Virus record (IMG/VR): IMGVR_UViG_3300030419_000880
Location: 1-36,505 of that record
DNA length: 36,505 bases
Direction: 5' to 3' (one strand)
Source: a virus
A program made the translations under genes and the position numbers. Of this stretch, positions 1 through 27,350 are shown piece after piece (the first letter of the stretch is position 1; each line of letters starts with the position of its first letter). Below the pieces are notes generated by a model, which searched no databases, had not been told where the DNA came from, and was given only the letters and a program-made list of their open reading frames with translations.

Positions 1-95
1 TGTAGTCTGTAATTTTCCATAAGAGAATCACAATATTTTTCTGTCCATCCTAAAACTCTTTCTGGTAAAGTTGTTTGAACTGGTGTTGCAGTCAT
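1..95 (-). CDS. Partial unknown protein (N-terminus only)
   Basis: An open reading frame begins with ATG at 95 on the minus strand and runs off the left edge without a stop, so about 31 N-terminal residues are visible. It starts MTATPVQTTLPERVLGW and continues with TEKYCDSLMENY. A purine-rich AAAGGGA lies about 10 nt upstream of the ATG. A late-promoter-type octamer at 168-175 stands upstream in the intergenic space and would drive it. The fragment is too short to assign to a family. The reading frame, start and promoter make a real gene likely, but the product is unknown. Confidence 0.55.
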   Translation of the reverse strand, partial: MTATPVQTTLPERVLGWTEKYCDSLMENYRL

Positions 96-138
96 AAATG
101 ATAAATCCCTTTGTACTCTTATATTATAACCACTACAG

Positions 139-151
139 ACCCTTCTAGGGT
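139..151 (-). other. Small inverted repeat in the leader of the left-edge gene
   Basis: ACCCT-TCT-AGGGT forms a five-base-pair stem with a three-base loop. It lies between the late-promoter octamer at 168-175 and the ATG at 95, so it would fall in the 5' untranslated leader. No T-run follows on the minus strand, so it is not a typical terminator. It could be a leader hairpin or chance. Confidence 0.25.
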
Positions 152-167
152 GCAATGGTAGACAGTT

Positions 168-175
168 TATTTATT
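168..175 (-). promoter_or_regulatory. Late promoter octamer AATAAATA
   Basis: Read on the minus strand this is AATAAATA, matching the NATAAATA form of the T4-type late promoter known from cyanophages. It lies in the 91-bp gap between the 101-aa gene (stop at 187) and the left-edge gene (ATG at 95), pointing toward the latter. The same octamer recurs before several tail-fibre genes in this window. Confidence 0.5.
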
Positions 176-186
176 GGCACACTCTC

Positions 187-492
187 CTACTTCTCTTTCA
201 ATAATTCTGTTAATTTATGTGTTTGATTTTGTAAGTGAATCATTTCTTCTTGCAATCTCCCAACCTTTTGATTAAGTTCTACTATCCACTCATATAATGC
301 TTTATTACTTAATTCTAAAGGTTGTTCGATATTTTCTTCTACTTGCCATTTATTATTCAAATGTCCTTCTTCTTTTACCCAAAATCCATCACCAGACATT
401 TCCCATCCATCTTCAATTAAATCGTCATAAGTTCTTTCATCAAAGAAATTTCTTTTCCATTTACCTAATGAGTGTTTTAATGACTTAAACAT
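187..492 (-). CDS. Hypothetical protein with C-terminal coiled coil (101 aa)
   Basis: I do not recognise the family. The N-terminal 20 residues are basic (MFKSLKHSLGKWKRNFF). Residues 20-45 contain a short aromatic segment, GDGFWVKEEG, and residues 62-101 form a clear amphipathic heptad pattern (LNQKVGRLQEEMIHLQNQ) that predicts a coiled coil, so it may oligomerise. A strong ribosome site, AGGAGG, lies just before the ATG at 492. It is the third gene of an operon after the SF2 helicase (699-1916) and the 64-aa protein (502-696), with a gap of only 9 bp, and probably shares the helicase promoter near 1940. No signal peptide or membrane segment is visible. Confidence 0.6.
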   Translation of the reverse strand: MFKSLKHSLGKWKRNFFDERTYDDLIEDGWEMSGDGFWVKEEGHLNNKWQVEENIEQPLELSNKALYEWIVELNQKVGRLQEEMIHLQNQTHKLTELLKEK

Positions 493-501
493 TTTAACCT
501 C

Positions 502-696
502 CTATTTAATAAGATACCAGTGTTGATCATTACTCTTTCTAATAACAAAAGAGCGATTCTTTTTGATGTTTTCTACATAATAACTATCAGAATCTTCTTC
601 CAATACTCTACAAGAATGAAGAGACATAAATTTATCCGTAAAATCTACTTTTGCTTCCGTACTTTTAGGGGAAACATAAACAAATTTGTTTTTCAT
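502..696 (-). CDS. Hypothetical small protein (64 aa)
   Basis: I do not recognise this family. It is a short, charged, soluble-looking protein starting MKNKFVYVSPKSTEAKVDF and ending QHWYLIK, with predicted alternating beta strands (SYYVENIKK, RSFVIRK). The ATG at 696 lies 2 nt after the helicase stop (TAATTATG), so translation is probably coupled to the helicase. The next gene starts 9 bp downstream. The position suggests an early-expressed accessory protein rather than a virion component. It is accepted as real because it fills the interval exactly between two good genes on the same strand. Confidence 0.55.
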   Translation of the reverse strand: MKNKFVYVSPKSTEAKVDFTDKFMSLHSCRVLEEDSDSYYVENIKKNRSFVIRKSNDQHWYLIK

Positions 697-698
697 AA

Positions 699-1916
699 TT
701 ACTTAGTAATAGTAGAAACAGCAGCATCACCTTTTTCAAACACAATGTCAACAACATTATGTAATTTACGAGAGGTGGTGATGCCAACCTTATCGTAAAC
801 TGGTACACAAATTAAACCATAAGTTTTAGTTGCATTACCCTTACGAATTACACGACCAATAGTTTGACTAATGGTGATGTAATCCATACTTCTAAGTAAC
901 ACAACTGATTCTAATCCTTTAACATTAATACCCTCAGATAATATACTGTGATGTAATACTACAAAAGATTTGCTACTATCTTCACCCCATTCATTAAGAA
1001 TATTAAAGAATTCTTGTCTGGATACTTTCTTACCATCTATAACTGCACCAGTCTTAGATGTTATATACATCCAAGAATATCCACGAGATTTTAACTGATA
1101 ACAGAAATCAGTTAATGATGTTAAACTAACAATTTGTTTGGTAGATCTTGCACAGATAAGTATTTTATTCTTAGCAGAATCATCAATAGTGTTTAATAGA
1201 TAATCACATTCTTTTTCATGCTTAAATCTGCTATCATCTACAACATCTACTTTATTAATAGACACTTTAGGGGGAAGAATATATCCTTGTTCTACTAACT
1301 GAGGTGCTGGTACTTGTGCAATAACTTTACCATAAATGTCCTCATCATTCATACCTATTCTAGTTGGAGTTTTAGAATGTTTAGGTGTAGCAGTAAAGAA
1401 ATAGCAACGATTAGAATATATTGAATAATACTCAACTGCCTCTACAAAGTTCTTCTGAATACTATTATGTGCTTCATCAAAGTATATTGTATCAACCTCA
1501 ATATCTGCCTCTTGTACTCTATTAAGAGAATGATATGTAGAGAAGATTAACTTATTGTATCTGTAATTCTGTTCAGTCCACGCACGAATATCATCAGGAT
1601 TTGTGGTAGATTGATGAGAAGTATCGCCAGAATGTACATGCAACACTTTATATTGAAGCATAGGATGTGTAGATAAATGTTCTACAAAATCCTCACACAA
1701 TTGCTGTGCTAATAGAATACGAGGGGCAACAATTACAATAGTTTTTCTATCAGGATCACTTAAAACTATATCCCAATTACAACTATTGAACTCTCTTTGT
1801 GTATCTTTAATCATACATAAAGTCTTGCCACCACCCGTAGGCACAAGAACCTGACCCTTCATATTACTACGAAGAGAATCAAGAACTGTGATCTGGTGTG
1901 GTCTTAATTGAACCAT
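699..1916 (-). CDS. SF2 DEAH-type helicase (UvsW-like or ResIII-like)
   Basis: A 405-residue superfamily 2 helicase/translocase. Visible motifs in order: N-terminal Q/RPHQ motif (RPHQITVL, residues 5-12), Walker A PTGGGKT (26-32), motif Ia IVAPRILL (62-69), DEAH box FDEAH (146-150), motif III FTATP (174-178) and motif VI QTIGRVIRKG (351-360) with its arginine finger. Both RecA-like lobes are complete. In T4-like phages this architecture is seen in UvsW, which remodels recombination and stalled-fork intermediates. The same fold (ResIII) also occurs in restriction-linked helicases, and here it lies next to two DNA methyltransferases. ATG at 1916 is preferred over the TTG one codon upstream. A sigma70-like promoter sits directly upstream. 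Helicase identity is secure; the biological role is inferred. Confidence 0.9.
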   Translation of the reverse strand: MVQLRPHQITVLDSLRSNMKGQVLVPTGGGKTLCMIKDTQREFNSCNWDIVLSDPDRKTIVIVAPRILLAQQLCEDFVEHLSTHPMLQYKVLHVHSGDTSHQSTTNPDDIRAWTEQNYRYNKLIFSTYHSLNRVQEADIEVDTIYFDEAHNSIQKNFVEAVEYYSIYSNRCYFFTATPKHSKTPTRIGMNDEDIYGKVIAQVPAPQLVEQGYILPPKVSINKVDVVDDSRFKHEKECDYLLNTIDDSAKNKILICARSTKQIVSLTSLTDFCYQLKSRGYSWMYITSKTGAVIDGKKVSRQEFFNILNEWGEDSSKSFVVLHHSILSEGINVKGLESVVLLRSMDYITISQTIGRVIRKGNATKTYGLICVPVYDKVGITTSRKLHNVVDIVFEKGDAAVSTITK

Positions 1917-1928
1917 CAAAATTTTATC

Positions 1929-1940
1929 AATACATGTATT
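1929..1940. promoter_or_regulatory. 12-bp perfect palindrome at helicase promoter (possible operator)
   Basis: AATACATGTATT is a perfect 12-bp palindrome. It overlaps the downstream end of the -10 hexamer (1938-1943) and the expected transcription start of the helicase operon. Symmetric sites in this position commonly bind dimeric repressors, so an operator is a reasonable inference. No candidate repressor gene is seen in the window. Confidence 0.35.
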
Positions 1941-1966
1941 ATAATGGAAAAAACACCTAATGGAAA
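1938..1966 (-). promoter_or_regulatory. Sigma70-like promoter for helicase operon
   Basis: On the minus strand a perfect TATAAT (1943 down to 1938) is preceded, after exactly 17 bp, by TTTCCA (1966 down to 1961), which matches four of six bases of TTGACA. The helicase ATG is at 1916. This fits early transcription by unmodified host RNA polymerase, unlike the NATAAATA octamers used by the structural genes. Confidence 0.5.
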
Positions 1967-1967
1967 T

Positions 1968-2888
1968 TTAATGTGCCACTACGCTCACTGGCACACGATC
2001 TATTATCAAATTACCATAGTCCTCATGCAGTTCACATCCTATGTAATACCTATCCAACATTTTTGATACCATTGCAGTAGTTCCAGATCCCATAAATGGA
2101 TCTAAAATGATATCACCAACTTCTGAACCTGCCTTAATACATGGTTCTACTAAATCAGGTGGGAAAGTAGCAAAATGAGCACCCTTATATGGTTTGTTAG
2201 TTATACTCCAAACAGACCTTTTATTCTTCTTTGGATATGATTTAGTGAGTCCAGAATGGGGTTGTAATCCTGTACCTTTATTGTGATATTTTCCTTTAGT
2301 TCTATCACGAGTACCCCAATCTTTTGCTGGTTCTTTGATACTTTCATTATCATAATAATACTTCCTATTTTTACTTAGTAAAAACAAATATTCATGTGAT
2401 TTAGTACATCTATCCTTCACACTTTCAGGCATTGGATTAGGTTTATGCCATATAATATCCTGCCTTAAGTACCATCCATCTGCTCTTAATGCAAATGCTA
2501 ACATCCAAGGAATTCCAATCAAATCTTTCTCTTTTAATCCATCTAATTTGTTTCCACGTTTAGAACATTTATCTGGTAAATCTTGCTTAGTAGCAGATAC
2601 AGTTTGTTTAGGATATGATTGACCTTTACCAGGTCTATAGTTATAATAACTATCACCAATGTTTAACCATAATGTACCATCCTCAGTTAGCAGATTACGC
2701 ACTTCTCGGAATACTTCTACTAATTTTTGAATATACTCTTCTGGAGATGATTCTTGACCTATTTGGTTATCCTCCCCTCCATAATCTCTTAAACCATAAT
2801 AAGGTGGAGAAGTAATGCAACACCTTGCTTTTTCATCGAATTCTTTAAGAGTTTGAAGACAATCTCCAAATAAAATAGTATCTTTCAA
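1968..2888 (-). CDS. DNA methyltransferase, beta-type (SPPY ... DPFMGSGTT)
   Basis: A site-specific amino-methyltransferase of about 306 residues. The catalytic motif TSPPYYGLRDY is near the N-terminus (SPPY at 27-30) and the SAM-binding motif DPFMGSGTT is near the C-terminus (from 263). This order (IV before I) defines the beta group, which methylates N6 of adenine or N4 of cytosine. Other blocks are NIGDSYYN and WHKPNPMPESV. An upstream GTG would add 42 residues that overlap a membrane-protein gene out of frame, and the ATG at 2900 lacks a ribosome site. TTG at 2888 is preferred because GGAGGG lies 4 nt upstream and it overlaps the upstream stop as TTGA. Target sequence cannot be told. It probably pairs with the neighbouring methyltransferase and possible nuclease. 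Confidence 0.88.
   Translation of the reverse strand: MKDTILFGDCLQTLKEFDEKARCCITSPPYYGLRDYGGEDNQIGQESSPEEYIQKLVEVFREVRNLLTEDGTLWLNIGDSYYNYRPGKGQSYPKQTVSATKQDLPDKCSKRGNKLDGLKEKDLIGIPWMLAFALRADGWYLRQDIIWHKPNPMPESVKDRCTKSHEYLFLLSKNRKYYYDNESIKEPAKDWGTRDRTKGKYHNKGTGLQPHSGLTKSYPKKNKRSVWSITNKPYKGAHFATFPPDLVEPCIKAGSEVGDIILDPFMGSGTTAMVSKMLDRYYIGCELHEDYGNLIIDRVPVSVVAH
1972..1995 (-). terminator. Weak hairpin at end of the methyltransferase gene
   Basis: TGTGCCA and TGGCACA form a seven-base-pair stem with a ten-base loop over the last codons of the beta methyltransferase gene. On the minus strand it is followed by AT-rich sequence and, some 20 nt later, a T6 run. It may end or attenuate the methyltransferase transcript before the helicase promoter, but the T-run is too distant for a standard intrinsic terminator. 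Confidence 0.25.
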
Positions 2889-3139
2889 GATGCCCTCCAT
2901 GCAACATAAAGTATATACAATAATCCTAATAACATCATAAAAGTAATAGGAAAGAATGGTATGATTGTAATTACATGAATTACTTGTATTATTACTATAC
3001 CATAAAATATCCACATTATAGTCATTCCTACTTTATTATGAAATGAACCACGTTTATACTCTGGTGGTGATATATTTTGTTTCCATATATCACTAGACAT
3101 GTATTCATCTTCATGTATTTTTCTTTTCATTTTAATCAT
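2885..3139 (-). CDS. Small two-helix membrane protein (84 aa)
   Basis: The first 37 residues are charged and probably cytoplasmic (MKRKIHEDEY, PPEYKRGSF). Residues 38-60 (TIMWIFYGIVIIQVIHVITI) and 64-81 (PITFMMLLGLLYILYVAW) are two hydrophobic segments long enough to span the membrane, separated by a short turn (PFFP). The start overlaps the upstream methyltransferase stop as ATGA, with an AGAGGT ribosome site. Its last codons (W-R-A-S-stop) encode the GGAGGG ribosome site and TTG start of the beta methyltransferase. I recognise no family. Its place between two methyltransferases suggests it belongs to that cassette, perhaps acting at the membrane in exclusion or as a small effector, but nothing in the sequence proves this. 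Confidence 0.6.
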   Translation of the reverse strand: MIKMKRKIHEDEYMSSDIWKQNISPPEYKRGSFHNKVGMTIMWIFYGIVIIQVIHVITIIPFFPITFMMLLGLLYILYVAWRAS

Positions 3140-4059
3140 AATAATACCTCTAAAAAATTGTTTGGGTTAATAACACTATCACATATCCATCTTACTTCCT
3201 TAAATGATATTCTCTTTCTATACTTACCACTCTTTTGTAATGATTTAAAAGATGTAAGATAGAAATCCTTAGTTGATAGTCTATAAGATGTAATTGCATC
3301 ATTAATTAATGATAAATGTTCATCCCCTATATGTGGAGAATTTATAGAGAATATATTTCTATTTGTATTCTTATACTCTACACTTCCCACTTTAACATGT
3401 ATATTATCTCCATCAATTCTATCAATTCCATTCACAATATGTCTATATGAATCACGAGGATTAAATGTCATTTCAAATGGTACACTTCGAGGAGTATTAC
3501 GATAATCTAAAATAATTTCTTCACCGTTAATATATGTTCTTTTCTGATCAACCTTATAGGGCACGAAGTATGCTACGCCAGCAGGATTATCAGTATCAGA
3601 GAATAGTTTCATATCAAACTTGTCCCACGCATATAATCTATCTTTAAATAGATTTTGATTCCAAAAAGTACTAGGAATAATTGCTGCTACATAATCACAA
3701 TTATCAAGACATACTTGTAGTGCATCAAGATACAAATCCTCATGTTTTAACACTACTGGTAGTTTCTTTCTTGATACTACAGTTTTAGCAAGATAAGGTG
3801 GATTAGTGATACACACTTTATATCCACGAGGAAAATCTCTAATAGTATTTCTTTCAACAACTTTAGGATGATTTGGTGCTATATCATAACCATCCCAGTC
3901 TACATCTATGTACTTAAAAAGATGCCCTGCACCAGCAAATGGTTCCAAGAATGTAACATCCTTTGGAACCATCTTATACCAATCTTTAAAAGCACCAGAC
4001 CTATTAAAAGGGTCAGTCGTTGTATAATACTGACCCAGTAATTGTTTAGTTAATACCAA
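3136..4059 (-). CDS. Adenine-specific DNA methyltransferase (gamma-type, NPPY)
   Basis: The protein begins LTKQLLGQYYTT, the usual N-terminus of gamma-class N6-adenine methyltransferases. SAM-binding motif I FLEPFAGAGHLF (37-48) is followed by acidic motif II (GYDIAP) and catalytic motif IV CITNPPYL (83-90). The C-terminal third should carry target recognition. The frame is open up to 4155, but that extension lies entirely inside the upstream gene in another frame and has no ribosome site. I chose TTG at 4059, which puts motif I at the expected distance from the start and gives a 14-nt overlap; the exact start is uncertain. The next gene overlaps its stop by ATGA. It is likely the modification partner of the possible nuclease encoded just upstream. 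Confidence 0.85.
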   Translation of the reverse strand: MVLTKQLLGQYYTTTDPFNRSGAFKDWYKMVPKDVTFLEPFAGAGHLFKYIDVDWDGYDIAPNHPKVVERNTIRDFPRGYKVCITNPPYLAKTVVSRKKLPVVLKHEDLYLDALQVCLDNCDYVAAIIPSTFWNQNLFKDRLYAWDKFDMKLFSDTDNPAGVAYFVPYKVDQKRTYINGEEIILDYRNTPRSVPFEMTFNPRDSYRHIVNGIDRIDGDNIHVKVGSVEYKNTNRNIFSINSPHIGDEHLSLINDAITSYRLSTKDFYLTSFKSLQKSGKYRKRISFKEVRWICDSVINPNNFLEVLL

Positions 4060-4744
4060 GACGTTGTTGAAATTCAGAATGATTAACGACCCAAATATTA
4101 TCAGAATCGTATGATTTCTTAAGTTCATTATACTTAGAATCAAGATCTGTGTCAATTAATAGGACATAAATCTTACCATCTTCACCATATTCTTGTGCCC
4201 ATTGTCCAAATGCTGCTGCTTCATGAAATACATTATCTTGATGTCCTCCTTCACCAAATACAATCTTGGCAAAGATATAACCTTCAAAGTTTCCAGAAAT
4301 TACACCATCTAAAGACTTAAGACAATCATATTTTCCTAATCCCTGCTCTTGAAGACGTTTAAACTCGTTTTTAGTTAATAATCTACCATCATGTGTAGGA
4401 CGTAGATCTTGATTATTTAAAGGACTAACATAAGTTCCAGTAGGTGCTGTTACTTTATTAATCTCGTTAAGAACAAAGAACTCATCTTTAGAACCTTGAC
4501 GAGATGCTTTAATAGAATTTCCATGAGCTACAGACTCAGCATAATCATAATTACCTTTACATTTACTATAAATGTCCTTACGATCTGTTCCTCTTTTTTC
4601 AACTAAACGATCAAGACTTTTGAAATTAAGGTAGGGACGTAAATCTTTCTCTACAAACTCACTGAAACAAAGAATTTCAGTAAGATTTTTATCCGTGGTT
4701 TTTTGACGAACATCACGAATCTTTGATAAATCTGCTGTGAACAT
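4046..4744 (-). CDS. Possible type II restriction endonuclease (232 aa)
   Basis: The protein is soluble, 232 residues, with no signal peptide or membrane segment. I do not recognise a named enzyme by sequence. Three observations suggest a nuclease of the PD-(D/E)XK fold. First, it is the leading gene of a cassette and overlaps an adenine methyltransferase, the usual R-M layout. Second, residues 146-170 (LDGVI, then GYIFAKIVFGEGGHQD) look like a core with D146, K160, E165 and Q169 as candidate metal-binding or catalytic residues. Third, the following hydrophobic strand IYVLLIDTD (192-200) and NIWVVNHSEF fit a central beta sheet, and the size is typical. The acidic residue normally two before the lysine is not evident (FAK), so an active-site variant or a different function remains possible. 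Confidence 0.5.
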   Translation of the reverse strand: MFTADLSKIRDVRQKTTDKNLTEILCFSEFVEKDLRPYLNFKSLDRLVEKRGTDRKDIYSKCKGNYDYAESVAHGNSIKASRQGSKDEFFVLNEINKVTAPTGTYVSPLNNQDLRPTHDGRLLTKNEFKRLQEQGLGKYDCLKSLDGVISGNFEGYIFAKIVFGEGGHQDNVFHEAAAFGQWAQEYGEDGKIYVLLIDTDLDSKYNELKKSYDSDNIWVVNHSEFQQRLGIN

Positions 4745-4755
4745 AATACTCGTTG

Positions 4756-4772
4756 CCCACTACTAAGGTGGG
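4756..4772 (-). other. Inverted repeat upstream of the possible endonuclease gene
   Basis: CCCAC-TACTAAG-GTGGG forms a five-base-pair GC-rich stem with a seven-base loop between the terminator (4802-4827) and the ATG at 4744. It could be a leader hairpin or a binding site controlling the cassette. No clear ribosome site is visible between it and the ATG. This is weak evidence on its own. Confidence 0.3.
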
Positions 4773-4801
4773 ACTGATTGATTACAATACTAATTTAACA
4801 T

Positions 4802-4827
4802 AAAAAAACACCCCGTCAAGGGGGTGT
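4802..4827 (-). terminator. Strong intrinsic terminator
   Basis: On the minus strand ACACCCC pairs with GGGGTGT across a six-base loop and is followed by seven T residues. It begins 8 nt after the stop of the 78-aa gene at 4835. It ends the leftward transcription unit of small genes and fibres and separates it from the methyltransferase/helicase cassette. It is the only strong intrinsic terminator I found in the window. Confidence 0.85.
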
Positions 4828-4834
4828 ATGACAC

Positions 4835-5071
4835 TTACGCAACTGGTACTTCAGATACTTCTATCTCTGCACCTTCCAGTTCTTTCATTCTTATAAACGA
4901 ACCTAACCTATTATAATATAAGGTATAATTTTCTGTTGTTAGGTAATAACCATCTATATCTTTTCCATCATCTGTATATCCATATGCTTTGACTTTCTCC
5001 TCTACTCCATCAATACGCAATTTTTTGGAACCATTTAAGTAAGAATGGTATCGTTCGTCTAGGTTAAACAT
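4835..5071 (-). CDS. Hypothetical protein (78 aa) before terminator
   Basis: I do not recognise this family. It is an acidic small protein with several predicted beta strands (LRIDGVEEKVKAYGY, GYYLTTENYTLYYN, SFIRMKEL) and a tyrosine-rich middle, suggesting a compact beta fold; no membrane segment or signal peptide. ATG at 5071 has no obvious Shine-Dalgarno sequence. It is preceded by a 97-bp non-coding stretch containing a seven-of-eight match to the late octamer (TGTAAATA, about 80 bp upstream of the ATG) and is followed 8 nt later by a strong terminator, which supports it as the last gene of a transcription unit. Confidence 0.6.
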   Translation of the reverse strand: MFNLDERYHSYLNGSKKLRIDGVEEKVKAYGYTDDGKDIDGYYLTTENYTLYYNRLGSFIRMKELEGAEIEVSEVPVA

Positions 5072-5168
5072 AGTTCTAAATGAGTTTGTGCGGAGATTCT
5101 AACATTATCTATAAGATTATGAAGTTTTCTTAAGATTGTCTTTAGACTCTATTTACACTTCTCAACTT

Positions 5169-5300
5169 TTAGTCCTCTTCACTTTCCTCTACTTCTAGAG
5201 TATCTTCCTCATTAAGGATACCAACACGTTTCTTATCATTCTTACTATCCCCTACAACTTCTCTTAATAAGTTGTCAACATCTTCTCGTAAGTTTGACAT
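5169..5300 (-). CDS. Tiny acidic protein (43 aa), translationally coupled
   Basis: A short frame starting MSNLREDVDNLLREVV and ending TLEVEESEED. The ATG at 5300 shares one base with the stop of the upstream 78-aa gene (TAATG), strong support for coupled translation. The N-terminal half is amphipathic helix-like, the middle is basic (SKNDKKR) and the tail is strongly acidic. The tail DNA (5180-5207) matches the tail of the upstream gene (5311-5338) over 28 nt with two differences, so the two genes share a duplicated end. Function unknown. Confidence 0.5.
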   Translation of the reverse strand: MSNLREDVDNLLREVVGDSKNDKKRVGILNEEDTLEVEESEED

Positions 5301-5536
5301 TACCCCTCCGCACTTTCCTCTACTTCTGGAGCATCTTCTACTACTTCTGCTTGTGCTTGTGCTTGATCAGCATTTATCTCTTCTTCAGTAGGTAATGTAA
5401 CTCCTAATCCCTGAAGATACTCAACTACACCTTGCAATTTAAGCAACAAAGCTCTTTGCTTATCAATATTTGTTTGAATTTCTTGTGCTTGTTGTACAAC
5501 TTGCTGCAAATGATTTTGTTGTTCTGTCATCTTCAC
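5300..5536 (-). CDS. Hypothetical coiled-coil protein with acidic tail (78 aa)
   Basis: Residues 3-45 form a glutamine-rich heptad pattern (QQNHLQQVVQQAQEIQTNI then RALLLKLQGVVEYLQ), a probable coiled coil or helical bundle. Residues 50-78 are acidic and low in complexity (EEEINADQAQAQAEVVEDAP). Small glutamine-rich coiled-coil proteins of this kind occur near tail-fibre genes of marine phages, but I cannot name this one. GAGTGAAG before the ATG is a plausible ribosome site. An imperfect late octamer lies at 5543-5550 (AATAAATT on the minus strand). The stop overlaps the start of the 43-aa gene by one base. A role as fibre chaperone or oligomerising accessory protein is possible but unproved. 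Confidence 0.6.
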   Translation of the reverse strand: MKMTEQQNHLQQVVQQAQEIQTNIDKQRALLLKLQGVVEYLQGLGVTLPTEEEINADQAQAQAEVVEDAPEVEESAEG

Positions 5537-5590
5537 TCAATGAATTTATTACTTATTATATAGGTCTTTATTTAAATTGTCAATGTTCGG

Positions 5591-5878
5591 TTATGGAGCA
5601 CTCTCATCAGCTATTAACTTATCCTTCCACGCATCCTTTACGGTTGTAGTCCAAACTGCATTACATACGGATTGAACTTCAGAACTCTCTCCCGAAATGT
5701 CTGTATCTACTAAATTATTACTACTATCCAGTTTACCAGGATTCAATACTCTACGATGAAAAGTACGACTTAGTTCTTTACCATCCTCTTTAATAATAGT
5801 AGCTTGTCTTATCTGAACTAACTTATAAGTTCCAACTATTTCCAAGCGATCTTCTTCAGTTGTTTTTGTTAATGCCAT
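5591..5878 (-). CDS. Conserved phage hypothetical protein (95 aa)
   Basis: The start (MALTKTTEEDRLEIVGTYK) and the segment LVQIRQATIIKEDGKELSR resemble a small protein that I recall next to tail-fibre genes in many marine phages; its function is not known. The N-terminal half is predicted to be beta-rich and contains a FHRRVLNPGK block. The C-terminal part (SEVQSVCNAVWTTTVKDAWK) looks helical with conserved tryptophans. There is no signal peptide or membrane segment. It lies 67 bp downstream of the 817-aa fibre gene on the same strand, so it is probably transcribed with the fibres and may be an accessory or assembly protein. Family recall is from memory and should be tested. Confidence 0.65.
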   Translation of the reverse strand: MALTKTTEEDRLEIVGTYKLVQIRQATIIKEDGKELSRTFHRRVLNPGKLDSSNNLVDTDISGESSEVQSVCNAVWTTTVKDAWKDKLIADESAP

Positions 5879-5945
5879 TAGGATAATTCTCCGAATTAAA
5901 CAGGTTTAGGCGTATTAGTTTAATGACGTAACGATTGGTCAAATA

Positions 5946-8399
5946 TTAACTAGCAGCAGTAAAGTATGTCCATACCATCCTTATATCATTATCATTACCA
6001 CCAGTATTTAAATCACTAATCGTCATTGCTCCATAATCTTCATCTCCATCTTTACGATGATATAGAGTACCTAAAGTTGAATTATTTGCCATTAAAATTG
6101 TTCCTGGAGCTTTATCTCCTAACCAAGCAGCACTATAAGCAATGTGACCTCCTCCTTGATTATCATTATTCCAACTAGCATAAGGTAAACCTTCTATTCT
6201 TAAATTACCACTTCCTCCACTTACACTATCAGTTCTCATTCTTATCATACACGTTACCTGATTACCAATTTTAATATAATCTCCATGTTGATTATCATAG
6301 GTACATGTTGGATCACCCGTTGAACCACCAAATGTAGGAGTAAATGTCCCTTGTTCATAGTCGTCAAGAACTGAACTAGTGGCATTACCACCTTGACTTT
6401 TACTGAAATCAATTCCTACACCATCAGTAGCAGGTTTGAAATTACTATTATCAAGTATTCTCCATGCTTCTGCTGATGCTCCAGCACCATCAGCACAAAC
6501 CTGAAAAACTAACGCAGTAGGATTATCATCAGTTGCATGAGTTCCTGTTGCAATGGCACCAATTCTTGCAGCTCTAGCAGGACCACCATCCCTACTCATA
6601 AAATCAATTATTCCCAACCAGTTATCTAATACAACAGAGGTGTCATCTCTAATCAACAACATCTTAGGAGTTGCTGTAGAAGTTAATTGAAGTTTTGCAT
6701 TTGTATCATCATCGATAGAATAGTCATTCGCAGCACCAGTACCAACACAGAAATTACCTATTTCATTAAAAAGTCCTCTTAGAGTAGTTCCTTGCATAAA
6801 ACCAAGTGGTTCACTACCGAACGATCTCAGATACCAAGTAGGATTAGTTGCATCAGTATCAGCTACTCTTATATTAAATGCACCACTTTGAGTTTTAATT
6901 TTAAAGCAATCTACATCTGTTCCACCACCATCAGGACTTATAGTTAATAGTTTGTCTGGATTACTAGTATTGATACCAACTTCACCACCATCTTCTATAC
7001 GAATAACTTCACCTCCCATACTCATTATCTTGAAATATGGAGAACCACCTGTAGAATCCCTATCAAACTCAAATACTGTTGCATTACCACTTTGCCACCA
7101 AGAAGTTCTATAATTATGATCTTCATCCCATAAACTAACGTGCGGAACAGTATCAACAATTTCCAAATCCTGATTTGGTAGATCAGTTCCTATACCAATT
7201 TTTTTACCGTAAATACTAAGTCTAGAAGTTGCATTACCACTTACATCAAACTCATCAATTCTAAATATACCTTCATCCCAACTACCCTGATCATAATAGA
7301 AACCAAATTGCTTGGTTGCTGTTCCCATTACATCTAAAAAATGTTGACCAGCAGCACCTTGTTTAATTGATAATGCAGCAGTTGGAGAACTATTTCCTTC
7401 TGTTCCTAGTCCAACATAACCACTACTTCCTATGATACGAACTCTTTCTGTACCATCAGTTCTAAATCTTATACTACTATCTGCACCTGCATTTGCTTCA
7501 TCAACAGAAATAGCTAAATTATCAGCATCATCTTCTAAACCAATCCAGTTATTTCTTAAATATCCAGTTCTACTAATTGTTATTCTTGCATCACTATTAG
7601 ATGTTCCATCCACATGAAGCAATGTCTGTGGATCATCTGTTCCGATACCGACTTTACCACTTGAATCAATTGTTACTCTATCAGTTTCGTCTGTTTGAAA
7701 TATTAAATCTCTACTACCAGCATTATGACCAACATACATTGCAGTTCCATCTGCTGCAATATACCCAGTGTATCCGAGACAATCGATTCTGAACTGTCCT
7801 GTGCCACTAGAACTAGGACTTACATCAGTATTATCACCAACTATAAGAGTTCCATATAATTGCGTATTTCCTATAACATCTAATGAATGTGATGGACTAT
7901 CAGTTCCGATACCAAGTCTACCTGTTGATGTGAGGCGAGCTTTCTCACTAGCATCAATTCTAAATCTTATACTACTAGCACCACCCTCATCCGATTCATC
8001 AGCAGCAATTACAAAGTCATCAGCTGAATCCAATCCAATCCAATTATTTCTAAAATTATCTGCTCTATCAAATCTTATCTTTGGATTTGATGCAGGATTC
8101 ACTAACTGTAATTTACTTTGTGGATCATCTGTTCCGATTCCAACTTTACCGTCTGCTTTAACTACAACTGCTGCGGTGATATCTGGGGTTGCTTCATCTT
8201 CTAATCTTAATATATCATAATCTCCTACCTGACGAACTAAGAGTGTAGTAGTTACTCCCGTCTGATTAAAAATATCTGTCAGTGCTAAAGGTGCAGTAGT
8301 TCCTATACCAATTCTTTTATTAACATTATCAATTTGCAAAGGACCAGTTCCTATGCCTGATCCCCAGTCTGCTAATTCAGTTGCGTTTGATAGTGCCAT
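5946..8399 (-). CDS. Tail fibre protein with VGIGT repeats and DYExGTFTPT end domain (817 aa)
   Basis: A modular fibre. Short stalk repeats of the form VGIGTxxPxxxLxV recur at about residues 30, 86, 162, 249, 401 and 473, as in trimeric fibres of marine phages. Residues about 84-165 and 247-335 are two diverged copies of one module (RNNWIGL, then SSIRFR, then GIGT or GLGT). Residues 575-650 (LLIRDDTSVVLDNWLG, then PTALVF) match a module in the 566-aa fibre gene at 9571-11271. The C-terminal domain begins DDYEQGTFTPTFGG (679-692) and contains HGDYIKIGNQV, a common distal domain of marine phage fibres, probably for receptor contact. A late octamer (8420-8427) lies 21 bp upstream of the ATG. No intramolecular-chaperone catalytic site was seen. 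Confidence 0.85.
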   Translation of the reverse strand: MALSNATELADWGSGIGTGPLQIDNVNKRIGIGTTAPLALTDIFNQTGVTTTLLVRQVGDYDILRLEDEATPDITAAVVVKADGKVGIGTDDPQSKLQLVNPASNPKIRFDRADNFRNNWIGLDSADDFVIAADESDEGGASSIRFRIDASEKARLTSTGRLGIGTDSPSHSLDVIGNTQLYGTLIVGDNTDVSPSSSGTGQFRIDCLGYTGYIAADGTAMYVGHNAGSRDLIFQTDETDRVTIDSSGKVGIGTDDPQTLLHVDGTSNSDARITISRTGYLRNNWIGLEDDADNLAISVDEANAGADSSIRFRTDGTERVRIIGSSGYVGLGTEGNSSPTAALSIKQGAAGQHFLDVMGTATKQFGFYYDQGSWDEGIFRIDEFDVSGNATSRLSIYGKKIGIGTDLPNQDLEIVDTVPHVSLWDEDHNYRTSWWQSGNATVFEFDRDSTGGSPYFKIMSMGGEVIRIEDGGEVGINTSNPDKLLTISPDGGGTDVDCFKIKTQSGAFNIRVADTDATNPTWYLRSFGSEPLGFMQGTTLRGLFNEIGNFCVGTGAANDYSIDDDTNAKLQLTSTATPKMLLIRDDTSVVLDNWLGIIDFMSRDGGPARAARIGAIATGTHATDDNPTALVFQVCADGAGASAEAWRILDNSNFKPATDGVGIDFSKSQGGNATSSVLDDYEQGTFTPTFGGSTGDPTCTYDNQHGDYIKIGNQVTCMIRMRTDSVSGGSGNLRIEGLPYASWNNDNQGGGHIAYSAAWLGDKAPGTILMANNSTLGTLYHRKDGDEDYGAMTISDLNTGGNDNDIRMVWTYFTAAS

Positions 8400-25723: not shown

Positions 25724-26269
25724 TTAAACTAACCTATAATCTTCAATATAATAATACTTCACATAATTTCTAATTTCAGAAGTACTTGATATTTTCTTAT
25801 AATTAGGTTCCATATATTCCAAAATTAACTTCTGTCCTACTTCATTGTAAATATAATTTTTATCCAATTCTTTTACTACAAAATCCATATCTAATACCTG
25901 CCCCATCCAATCACCAAAGTTCTCACCAAACCCATCTTCAAAATTCCAAAGACAAGTTTCTTCGCTAATATAATCCACTTGTTTCTTATACCATCCTTTA
26001 GAATAGAATGGATGAGAACTTAAAGACAAATATCTTTCCAAAGGATCTCTTATCACTGCAATATGAGGAATATTTTTTACATCTAAATGTTTCTCATATA
26101 ATTCTCTAGTAAAATGAGTAATTTCTGTACGATCAATCTCTTTCCATATAGGTTGTTCTGGTTCAAATCCATTCAACTTTATATTCTCTTGAATGAATCT
26201 ACCAGCAGTTTTGGGAATATGAATGAAAAGAAATCTCTTTCCAGTTTCTTTATGACGATAAGTAGGCAT
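25724..26269 (-). CDS. Sulfotransferase-family protein (181 aa)
   Basis: Residues 13-30 (FLFIHIPKTAGRFIQENI) contain the 5'-phosphosulfate-binding loop HIPKTAG of the sulfotransferase family, which transfers sulfate from PAPS. Residues 69-83 (HIAVIRDPLERYLSL) match the 3'-phosphate-binding motif, with R74 and a serine at 82. The protein is shorter than typical carbohydrate sulfotransferases (250-350 aa), so it is a minimal version or recognises a small acceptor. No membrane anchor, so it would act in the host cytoplasm. Its ATG shares a base with the stop of the upstream 2OG oxygenase (TAATG), so the enzymes are co-translated. The acceptor is unknown: a virion protein, a host glycan or a metabolite are all possible. 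Confidence 0.75.
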   Translation of the reverse strand: MPTYRHKETGKRFLFIHIPKTAGRFIQENIKLNGFEPEQPIWKEIDRTEITHFTRELYEKHLDVKNIPHIAVIRDPLERYLSLSSHPFYSKGWYKKQVDYISEETCLWNFEDGFGENFGDWMGQVLDMDFVVKELDKNYIYNEVGQKLILEYMEPNYKKISSTSEIRNYVKYYYIEDYRLV

Positions 26270-26856
26270 TAGATTGATTTATTAAACCAAAAAGATAGAA
26301 CATATCTGGTACCAGACTCAACTTCACTCACATGATGAAGATATTCTCTATTAGAAAAAATTAATAACTTTCCTGCTTTCGGTTTTACATCATACCATAC
26401 TTTATCATCTAAAGTATCGAATTGAGTATGTCCTCCAACATAGTCATCATTTAAATAAAGAAAAGATGCAAGAACATTAGGACTAAACATTTCAGATTTA
26501 TCATAATGTGGTTTCATAAAAGTTCCTTTTGGCCATCTTATGACACCACAATAATCTAATTGTATATCCTTATGAAATGTTTTACAAAGTTGAGTTACCT
26601 TCTTAATTACGTTAGCAAAAAGTTCATTAGATGTCAATTTAATATCGATAGGAGATACATCTCCACCCAAATAGATTGCACCATAATCACCATCAGGTTC
26701 TGGTATATCAGGACCATAACTCAAACTTTCATCAGAATTTGAATGAGTAACTGCTTCTAAGAATGTATCCTCCTTTTGATCTCCATGAAGATTGATAAAT
26801 GGTTTACACAAAGAAGGATTTAAAAATTCCTCTTCAACATAAATTAATTTTTTCAT
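26269..26856 (-). CDS. 2OG-Fe(II) oxygenase, prolyl-hydroxylase-like (195 aa)
   Basis: Double-stranded beta-helix dioxygenase using 2-oxoglutarate, oxygen and ferrous iron. The metal triad is visible: H117 and D119 (FMKPHYDK) and H174 (YLHHVSEV), with R184 (SGTRYVLSFWF) to bind 2-oxoglutarate. Other family blocks are SFLYLNDDYVGGHTQF and KPKAGKLLIFSN. Such enzymes are frequent in T4-like cyanophages; proposed substrates include protein side chains. It overlaps the upstream paralogue by ATGA and the downstream sulfotransferase by TAATG. Compared with the paralogue it has an insertion of about 30 residues after residue 25. The substrate is not indicated by sequence. Confidence 0.88.
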   Translation of the reverse strand: MKKLIYVEEEFLNPSLCKPFINLHGDQKEDTFLEAVTHSNSDESLSYGPDIPEPDGDYGAIYLGGDVSPIDIKLTSNELFANVIKKVTQLCKTFHKDIQLDYCGVIRWPKGTFMKPHYDKSEMFSPNVLASFLYLNDDYVGGHTQFDTLDDKVWYDVKPKAGKLLIFSNREYLHHVSEVESGTRYVLSFWFNKSI

Positions 26857-27350
26857 TTTTGATTATACCAAATACTAAGAGCAAATCTTTCTCCACCTTC
26901 AACCTGAGTAACATGATGTTTATAGATTGAATTAGAAAATACAAGTAGTTTTCCTTTTTCTGGTTTTATTTCATGTTCTTCAAATCCAGTATAACCACCA
27001 GTAAAATCATCGTTCAAATAAAGAACTGCTGCAAATAAATCAGGTTCTTGTCCTGGTCTTGATGGATCAATATGGGGTTTCATAAAAGTACCCTCTGGCC
27101 ATCTAACAACAGAAGCATAATCAATAATAACCCTGTCATCAAAGGTTTTACAAAGATCTGTTACTTTATCAACTACATTATTCTCTTGTGAATCAAAATA
27201 AATCCCATCCAAGGTAGTAAGAAAAGTATTACCACCCCTACCTGGATTTCCATAAGGAATTTCTTCTTTATTATCTTTAGAAAGTTTAATTAAATCATCA
27301 CACTCTTGAGGAGAAATAAAATTCTCTTCAAAGTAAATCAATTTTTTCAT
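26853..27350 (-). CDS. 2OG-Fe(II) oxygenase, second copy (165 aa)
   Basis: A paralogue of the next gene: both begin MKKLIY, and share DxxxVxRWPxGTFMKPH, LYLNDDxxGG and KGKLLVFSN-type blocks. The triad is H93, D95 (KPHIDP) and H145 or H146 (YKHHVTQV), with R155 (GERFALSIWY) for 2-oxoglutarate. It is complete and near the lower size limit of the family. The stop overlaps the start of the next oxygenase by ATGA. Two diverged copies side by side suggest different substrates rather than dosage. The gene begins 6 bp after a fibre/baseplate gene, so it is expressed with structural genes. Confidence 0.88.
   Translation of the reverse strand: MKKLIYFEENFISPQECDDLIKLSKDNKEEIPYGNPGRGGNTFLTTLDGIYFDSQENNVVDKVTDLCKTFDDRVIIDYASVVRWPEGTFMKPHIDPSRPGQEPDLFAAVLYLNDDFTGGYTGFEEHEIKPEKGKLLVFSNSIYKHHVTQVEGGERFALSIWYNQK

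Follow-up and report, generated by a model that had tools for sequence, protein, structure and literature searches.

What would a virus do with a cassette in which a possible nuclease is encoded beside two DNA methyltransferases of different classes, a small membrane protein and a helicase? The question is raised by the virus record IMGVR_UViG_3300030419_000880, whose full 36,505 bases are the window of this analysis and the reference for all residue and position numbers below. The window consists mainly of a run of minus-strand open reading frames (ORFs), structural-looking by eye, and over positions 1-8000 its DNA has matches among single-cell marine viruses and Prochlorococcus myoviruses. 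An earlier note had grouped five adjacent genes in this part into one restriction-modification-like cassette. Using profile searches, structure prediction and gene-neighborhood comparisons we find that two of them, here termed R and Mγ, very probably form a restriction–modification (R–M) pair of Type II and probably represent a complete such system of lytic T4-like cyanophages (Kyanoviridae), for which an attack on host DNA is the likeliest role. We also find that a promoter for Mγ seems to be maintained inside R, and that R has been replaced without Mγ in a relative of the window. The features on which these findings turn are:

4046..4744, minus strand: R, candidate Type II restriction endonuclease of 232 residues, PD-(D/E)XK-like (phrog_18366, predicted fold, invariant residues)
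3136..4059, minus strand: Mγ, probable gamma-class N6-adenine-type DNA methyltransferase of 307 residues with a TTG start (phrog_18657, motifs, linkage to R)
4127..4155, minus strand: predicted promoter within the R reading frame, TTGACA-N17-TATAAT (12 of 12 consensus positions, 67 nucleotides (nt) before the Mγ start)

The association of the two genes is close throughout the phages. At E <= 0.01 R was recovered in 16 phage records, and at E <= 1e-5 Mγ was recovered in 17; all 16 records with R also hold Mγ, and in the 17th Mγ record, an uncultured phage of 636 kb, the matching place is 27% identical. Among the viral contigs, Mγ lies downstream of R, adjacent or past an insert, in 37 of the 39 that bear R, and the two that lack it (L033 and L043) stop at that point; the Mγ matches of L037 and L038 are weak (34% over 88 residues). 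Likewise, R is upstream of Mγ in 21 of the 23 Mγ contigs, the remaining two having Mγ at their start, these 23 being mostly the same contigs as in the R list, so that the two counts are not independent. Thus, for this pair the neighborhood conservation that the earlier note had proposed to check is found, and the scatter of homologues that it had named as evidence against the cassette is not. The R family members in RefSeq and PHROGs (from P-SSM4, P-SSM3, S-RSM4, ACG-2014e/i and S-H38) are 31-65% identical to the R of the window. In S-RSM4 and ACG-2014e a 345-370-residue protein of unknown function (phrog_2615, phrog_33124; L004:6699-7736 and L005:6694-7806) separates R from Mγ, and a relative of this insert adjoins the helicase in P-RSM4.

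The pairing also extends to archaea. A contig of an archaeal metagenome-assembled genome codes for an R 42% identical to that of the window, at the extreme contig end, with any partner out of view. A profile search with R gave matches in 4 of 292 genomes of that archaeal order, and one over 389 genomes of the phylum in two, one of them new. At five archaeal places an R-like gene adjoins a methyltransferase gene (G001:C52, G242, G148, G216 and G080, indexed as L146, which is G001:C52, and L143, L144, L145 and L154). The methyltransferase of G001 matches Mγ (E 6.4e-19); those of G242 and G148 give matches under the cut-off to Eco57I (E 1.4e-4) and N6_N4_Mtase (E 0.0028), and those of G216 and G080 were judged by eye on the basis of an NPPY motif and resemblance to the rest. 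The R-like genes of G148 and G080 are short (181 residues) and without the H and N of GGHQDN, and the G080 protein was left out of the alignment discussed below. The four archaeal R proteins other than L154 gave no significant match in Pfam, an archaeal R searched by sequence against the PDB had none, and a search of plasmids for R and its archaeal kin found none.

Mγ belongs to phrog_18657 (E 5.7e-149), and its match to the Pfam family Eco57I (PF07669) falls below the cut-off (E 0.0045). It displays EPFAGAG as the apparent S-adenosylmethionine-binding motif I and NPPY as the apparent catalytic motif IV; we take it to be of the gamma class from the order of these motifs. Homologues vary motif I to EPFAGGG (L010, L039) or EPFAGSG (L044), that of L037 combines EPFVGAG with NPPF, and that of L048 is incomplete. 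A PDB sequence match to MetQ (E 0.024) was taken as chance. The longest ORF spans 3136-4155; since homology begins only at residue 33-34, the start was taken as TTG 4059, which yields an overlap with R of exactly 14 nt, as the earlier note had it.

R was recovered by phrog_18366, 'restriction endonuclease II' (E 2.1e-92). Its AlphaFold2 model, made from 27 sequences, has a mean predicted local distance difference test score (pLDDT) of 91.5 and a predicted template modelling score of 0.82. A comparison of this model with the PDB using VIA-align placed the restriction enzyme BstEII (PDB: 9ibq) first (Z 8.1, 136 residues, 3.8 Å, 12% identity), tied within 1 with several other rows including Upx and Cdn1; Upx, Cdn1, XisH, Can2, BsaWI and others follow. 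From their titles we take about 41 of the 50 rows to be PD-(D/E)XK-type nucleases, Upx not being placed; no evident non-nuclease appears before rank 24, the clear ones being CpaE, Rab and succinyl-CoA synthetase. BsaWI, AgeI, Bse634I, PspGI and SgrAI are among the matches at Z 5.1-6.8, and Foldseek listed BstEII, Ecl18kI and SgrAI at its lower ranks. The earlier note had called this protein a possible nuclease and had held that a different kind of fold would speak against its cassette; the predicted fold is of the nuclease type.

A 15-protein alignment of R, which takes in four distant archaeal proteins (21-25% identity), has as its only invariant columns E88, D146, K160, G166, G167, Q169, E175 and D198. 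In the CCGG-type enzymes (NgoMIV, Bse634I, Ecl18kI) the active site takes the form D ... xxK-x(12-14)-E, with a migrated glutamate. K160 and E175 of R have 14 residues between them, and we infer that D146, K160 and E175 match this pattern, with the second acidic residue moved to the next helix. This suggests that R adopts a PD-(D/E)XK-like nuclease fold in which E88, D146, K160 and E175 are the putative catalytic residues. At the sequence level the family stands apart: Pfam searches over 27 R proteins gave weak one-member matches only, including Tsp45I (PF06300; E 0.0045, from the divergent member L037, with 17 bits as against a cut-off of 25; 1 of 27 members) and SmaI (E 0.022). BstEII and Tsp45I recognize GGTNACC and GTSAC, respectively. 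R had no credible sequence match in the PDB (PNGF-II at E 0.093, citrate synthase at E 1.2); an engineered repeat protein (E 2.8e-6 as a whole, residues 15-67) was set aside as chance, with E around 10 or more per repeat. Both genes are under purifying selection, with a median ratio of non-synonymous to synonymous substitution rates (dN/dS) of 0.134 for R (136 pairs; range 0.027-0.589) and 0.183 for Mγ (153 pairs; range 0.073-0.362), computed over overlapping pairs with 0.1<dS<1.5. Taken together, R and Mγ combine several features of a Type II system: separate and adjacent R and M genes, a methyltransferase with apparent motifs I and IV and, by prediction and alignment, an R whose fold is of the nuclease type and whose putative catalytic residues are conserved.

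Between positions 400 and 5300 the sole full match to the sigma-70 consensus is the one at 4155-4127 on the minus strand, which the earlier note overlooked even though it is the best promoter of the region. On both strands of the entire window only two such perfect matches (spacer 16-18) occur; the other is on the minus strand at 5555-5583, upstream of a small gene at 5300-5536. The embedded site covers the R codons for I-D-T and Y-N. Upstream of R itself the best match ranges from 8 to 12 of 12 positions across 12 loci, and is 9 in the window. In a survey of 44 complete phage R genes (35 and 9 more, the incomplete L033 being left out) a perfect site is found at the homologous position in 18, which are all of the 18 genes whose amino acids permit it. 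Sixteen of these form 8 clusters less than 85% identical to one another, some no more than about one third, and all 8 clusters retain it. The chance of a perfect site per gene, given the protein and pooled codon usage, is 0.043-0.064. Nearby synonymous positions have diverged (e.g. Thr199, encoded by ACA, ACT or ACC). Hence, the embedded promoter seems to be synonymously constrained in those R genes that can encode it, and, given the uneven matches upstream of R, an expression order with M before R is plausible.

A comparison with the contig L039 revealed a sharp exchange. The Mγ proteins of L039 and the window are 98% identical, and those of Mβ, the second methyltransferase of the cassette, 97% over a 90-residue part, whereas the R proteins are only 42% identical. 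DNA identity is 98% up to 4815, drops to 38-65% over 4814-4095 and returns to 90-100% over 4094-3075; a second, milder dip (65-85%) at 3074-2895 spans the gene for the 84-residue membrane protein. By gene it amounts to 56.7% for R, 98.5% for Mγ, 78.8% for the 84-residue gene and 95.6% for the partial Mβ. The swapped stretch is thus R with its leader (the replaced R of L039 lies at 5974-6690), ending before Mγ, and the 84-residue gene differs separately. The embedded promoter is perfect in both R genes. Near the 5' breakpoint of the replacement lies a further feature:

4808..4827, minus strand: intrinsic-terminator-like hairpin after the upstream gene (7-bp stem, then six T)

R has, therefore, been replaced without Mγ in L039. 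Across the family, too, the R and Mγ trees conflict, and partners have been exchanged. In approximately unbiased (AU) tests over 21 rows, with L037 excluded, the R data reject the groups window+L039 (AU p 0.00125), window+L039+L010 (0.00375) and L006+L012+L034+L036 (0.0095), and the Mγ data reject R-type groupings (6e-6 and 5e-8, the latter for the large R group held together); the groupings were picked after viewing the trees, making these p values optimistic. Because an exchange of partners seems viable only with a compatible target, the family may well have one shared or compatible target site, and R enzymes 42% alike beside 98%-identical Mγ constitute a natural experiment on the keeping of R specificity.

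Other cyanophages carry different candidate modules. P-RSM4 and its relatives have, instead, a 201-residue protein, R2 (phrog_6892), and a 166-residue methyltransferase (M2; phrog_799), often beside the same helicase and Mβ; this candidate pair lies at L008:269-1371, with further loci in L050-L077. The small methyltransferase is present in 24 of 30 R2 contigs; L061, L063 and L064 (S-SM1 type) have a helicase in its place and L062, L078 and L079 end too early. In a second aligner the R2 model (pLDDT 80.6) reaches Z up to 7.4, with Eco15I, NhoI, BcnI, SfiI, DpnI, MvaI and PvuII among its matches, and every one of the top 34 rows is a nuclease by title. With Foldseek, DpnI came at rank 7, below histidine kinases and de novo proteins; as restriction enzymes lead the ranking of the second aligner only, the fold of R2 is less sure. 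Eight of 9 clusters have a promoter-like site (TTGACN, 18 nt, TANANT; 9-11 of 12) located 80-86 nt before the R2 end. Its p is 0.004-0.045 when tested in place; if synonymous resampling may pick the best site anywhere over the final 200 nt, p becomes 0.017-0.63 and is below 0.05 in only 2 of the 9 clusters. In P-TIM68 (L007:4940-6026) a third candidate, a 181-residue protein with a weak match to PvuII (E 0.002, below cut-off), lies beside a 176-residue methyltransferase. Its P-SSM2 homologue has no methyltransferase neighbor annotated within the 6.5 kb fetched, and no relatives of P-TIM68 gp050 were found in the viral contigs. No phage record occurs in two of the three module lists (16, 28 and 6 records), which is not significant at these numbers. 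We tentatively propose, with the balance somewhat against it, that cyanophages carry exchangeable, unrelated Type II pairs for host DNA destruction, that R–Mγ and R2–M2 (P-RSM4/S-TIM4 type) independently placed the M promoter inside the R end, and that R can be swapped while M and the site stay fixed. The weakness of the R2 promoter under the stricter control weighs this proposal down. If it holds, protection would never depend on transcription of R, and R enzymes no more than about 40% alike would serve one mark.

How would the R–Mγ pair operate in an infection? At entry, host RNA polymerase may use the consensus promoter, such that Mγ would be made independently of R, and Mγ would then methylate adenine at a specific short site on the phage DNA. 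R would cut the same site when unmethylated, and would do so on the host chromosome first, providing both a supply of nucleotides and shut-off, while unmethylated competitor DNA would be cut as a by-product. To our knowledge, the nuclease behind host DNA degradation by cyanophages is not settled, and an R–M pair carried by the phage itself offers a concrete candidate. Host DNA is reported to be degraded within hours in infections by Syn9, P-HM2 and P-SSP7 (PMC7852597). All three are outside our list of R-bearing phage records, and other nucleases presumably act in them for that reason. In chloroviruses (PBCV-1 etc.) R and M genes are adjacent, virus DNA is methylated and degradation of host DNA has been proposed for the R enzymes (PMC7019647). 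That work is in line with an attack on host DNA in preference to exclusion of other viruses, and R–Mγ would, if so employed, mirror the chlorovirus strategy in prokaryotes. Our estimate that host DNA attack is the main role of the pair is evenly balanced.

Several observations have to be set against this interpretation. R has no match at E <= 1 in Pfam, NCBIfam or PADLOC, Foldseek of R against the PDB gave none at E <= 0.001 (best Can2, 2.3e-3), and Z 8.1 is about the level that VIA-align calls typical of models without clear relatives. The acidic residue two before the lysine is absent (F158-A-K160 where E-x-K is usual), and catalysis would therefore need E175 or E88 as a substitute. As regards the promoter, 26 of the 44 phage R genes cannot encode the site: 19 of the S-RSM4/ACG-2014e type have Phe for Tyr (best score 7-10 of 12), and the rest are 5 divergent genes (8-9) plus L006 and L044 at 11 of 12. 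The archaeal L049 is without it (best score 8), and promoter-like sites overall are no commoner than in shuffles (32 in the region vs 28.0 ± 5.5). In a codon-identity scan over R the promoter stretch did not stand out: the lowest window was codons 156-167, and of the 13 of 88 columns that are fully codon-identical (6.05 expected) only four lie within the promoter. Moreover, the product over the 8 clusters (~1e-10 if independent) is overstated on account of shared ancestry. Finally, chlorovirus R enzymes reportedly did not cause mutual exclusion (PMC7019647).

This last result bears even more directly on the idea that the main job of the same pair is to exclude or degrade competing phages. The different R2–M2 candidate of other cyanophages is what one would expect if unlike types attacked each other, but host DNA is always present and is unmethylated unless the host bears the same mark, and we consider superinfection exclusion rather unlikely as the principal role. 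Still less probable is a chiefly selfish module that spreads in a homing-like manner by cutting unmarked genomes in co-infection, with its R alleles recombined. That R was sharply replaced while its flanks are near-identical, that the R and Mγ trees conflict and that other modules lie at comparable places would all fit it; yet it predicts that R and M move jointly, and the R of L039 moved without Mγ, and the purifying selection on both genes fits a used function as well. One might also suppose that Mγ, with Mβ, is the useful part, guarding phage DNA from host restriction, and that R is a dying or dead passenger, especially as orphan methyltransferases are common in phages and R is without the canonical ExK acid. 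Against this, R evolves at the low dN/dS given above, retains E88, D146, K160 and E175 down to 21% identity and is present in 21 of 21 Mγ contigs with room upstream. An outright dead R was rejected on the grounds of the selection and the invariant residues, and the passenger scenario as a whole is highly improbable. A complete R–M pair used on host DNA is accordingly the interpretation we prefer.

With respect to known systems, the designation of such phage proteins as restriction endonucleases is not new, as it exists in RefSeq and PHROGs: the 'restriction endonuclease II' of phrog_18366 is the same protein family as R, with the same kind of methyltransferase beside it, although there it is a product name only and the Mβ, helicase and membrane-protein neighbors vary. 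What seems new is the linked, selected pair with a nuclease-like fold, its archaeal counterparts, the embedded M promoter and the replacement of R without Mγ. Our search of the cyanophage R–M literature, with most subscription journals and bioRxiv outside its scope, found no paper on the pair. The chloroviruses differ in having a eukaryotic host and R packaged in the virion, whereas the present system is from a cyanobacterial T4-like phage and has the M promoter inside R. Structurally R matches BstEII best, yet at 12% identity there is no membership at the sequence level, and an R family without Pfam, NCBIfam or PADLOC matches may be a new enzyme reagent. In the EcoRI system promoters and regulators of ecoRIM reportedly lie in ecoRIR, going by the title of a 2007 study by Liu, Ichige and Kobayashi (cited in PMC3874152). 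That R is of another family. In the present case phage lineages share the promoter through conserved synonymous sites, and it offers a simple route to making M independently of R in lytic infection. T4 directs its nucleases denA and denB at host DNA and marks its own with hydroxymethylcytosine. Here a methyltransferase is paired with R, and R is predicted to be PD-(D/E)XK-like, unlike the GIY-YIG nuclease EndoII.

The remaining genes of the cassette are:

2885..3139, minus strand: 84-residue protein with a hydrophobic C-terminal half (hydropathy; family in 40 contigs)
1968..2900, minus strand: Mβ, probable beta-class DNA methyltransferase, 'dam'/GC38 of cyanophages (PF01555, E 1.2e-55)
699..1919, minus strand: superfamily 2 (SF2) helicase (ResIII/DEAD), GC36 (profile matches; 418 phage records)

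All five ORFs are present on the minus strand where the earlier note had them. It had further described them as chained: the overlap of Mγ with the 84-residue gene is indeed ATGA (3139-3136), and that of the latter with Mβ is TTGA with TTG 2888 as the Mβ start and 16 nt with ATG 2900. We presume that Mβ is of the beta class from its SPPY and DPFMGSG motifs. The 84-residue protein is likely to have two membrane spans, judging from hydropathy.

That all five genes constitute one integrated defence or exclusion system, its DNA processing driven by the helicase and its membrane part supplied by the 84-residue protein, is suggested by their overlaps and by the recurrence of the order R–Mγ–Mβ–helicase in P-SSM4 and P-SSM3, but their distributions make it extremely improbable. 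The helicase occurs in 418 phage records (E <= 1e-40), all with Synechococcus, Prochlorococcus, Cyanophage or Marine as the first word of the name, and Mβ homologues occur in 198 (E <= 1e-40), 82 of them Mycobacterium phages, as compared to 16 for R. Furthermore, 39 of the 40 viral contigs with the 84-residue family are without R or Mγ in the fetched stretch (up to 4 kb each side), the sole exception being L101, the contig of L039 and L080, and S-RSM4, ACG-2014e and S-H38 carry R–Mγ without adjoining Mβ or helicase. Since these distributions differ from that of R, the five genes are not one unit: the helicase and Mβ are independent genes, and that for the membrane protein is a roaming gene outside the R–M pair. 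Nor is the layout that the earlier note found unfamiliar unique, as P-SSM4 and P-SSM3 repeat the order without the 84-residue gene. In P-RSM3, too, tblastn coordinates put R, Mγ and Mβ next to one another. The 84-residue family (window 2885-3139, L102-L140) is widespread in marine viral contigs, sometimes near the helicase and Mβ.

A Type III R–M system (Mod and Res) was rejected, the helicase having ResIII/DEAD and Helicase_C matches with no match to a nuclease domain and occurring in 418 phage records as against 16 with R. DISARM and BREX are distinguished by the signature proteins DrmB/DrmC and PglX/PglZ/BrxC, respectively. No DISARM or BREX model was among the PADLOC matches listed for the five proteins (for Mβ the best 25 of 66, methyltransferase models), the helicase gave weak DinG/DpdF matches, and assignment of the cassette to either system appears unlikely.

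The strong terminator reported earlier is present as the hairpin at 4827-4808. It sits directly after the upstream gene at 4835-5071 and therefore parts the cassette from the preceding genes, marking its upstream limit; the region has 2 terminator-like sites vs 1.1 ± 1.3 in shuffles. The helicase had also been credited with its own promoter. A candidate at 1966-1938 does match 10 of 12 consensus positions, which is by itself no evidence because such sites are not above shuffles. Elsewhere in the window, three minus-strand ORFs at 25724-27350 resemble, by eye and from their appearance alone, one sulfotransferase-type and two 2OG-Fe(II) oxygenase-type proteins.

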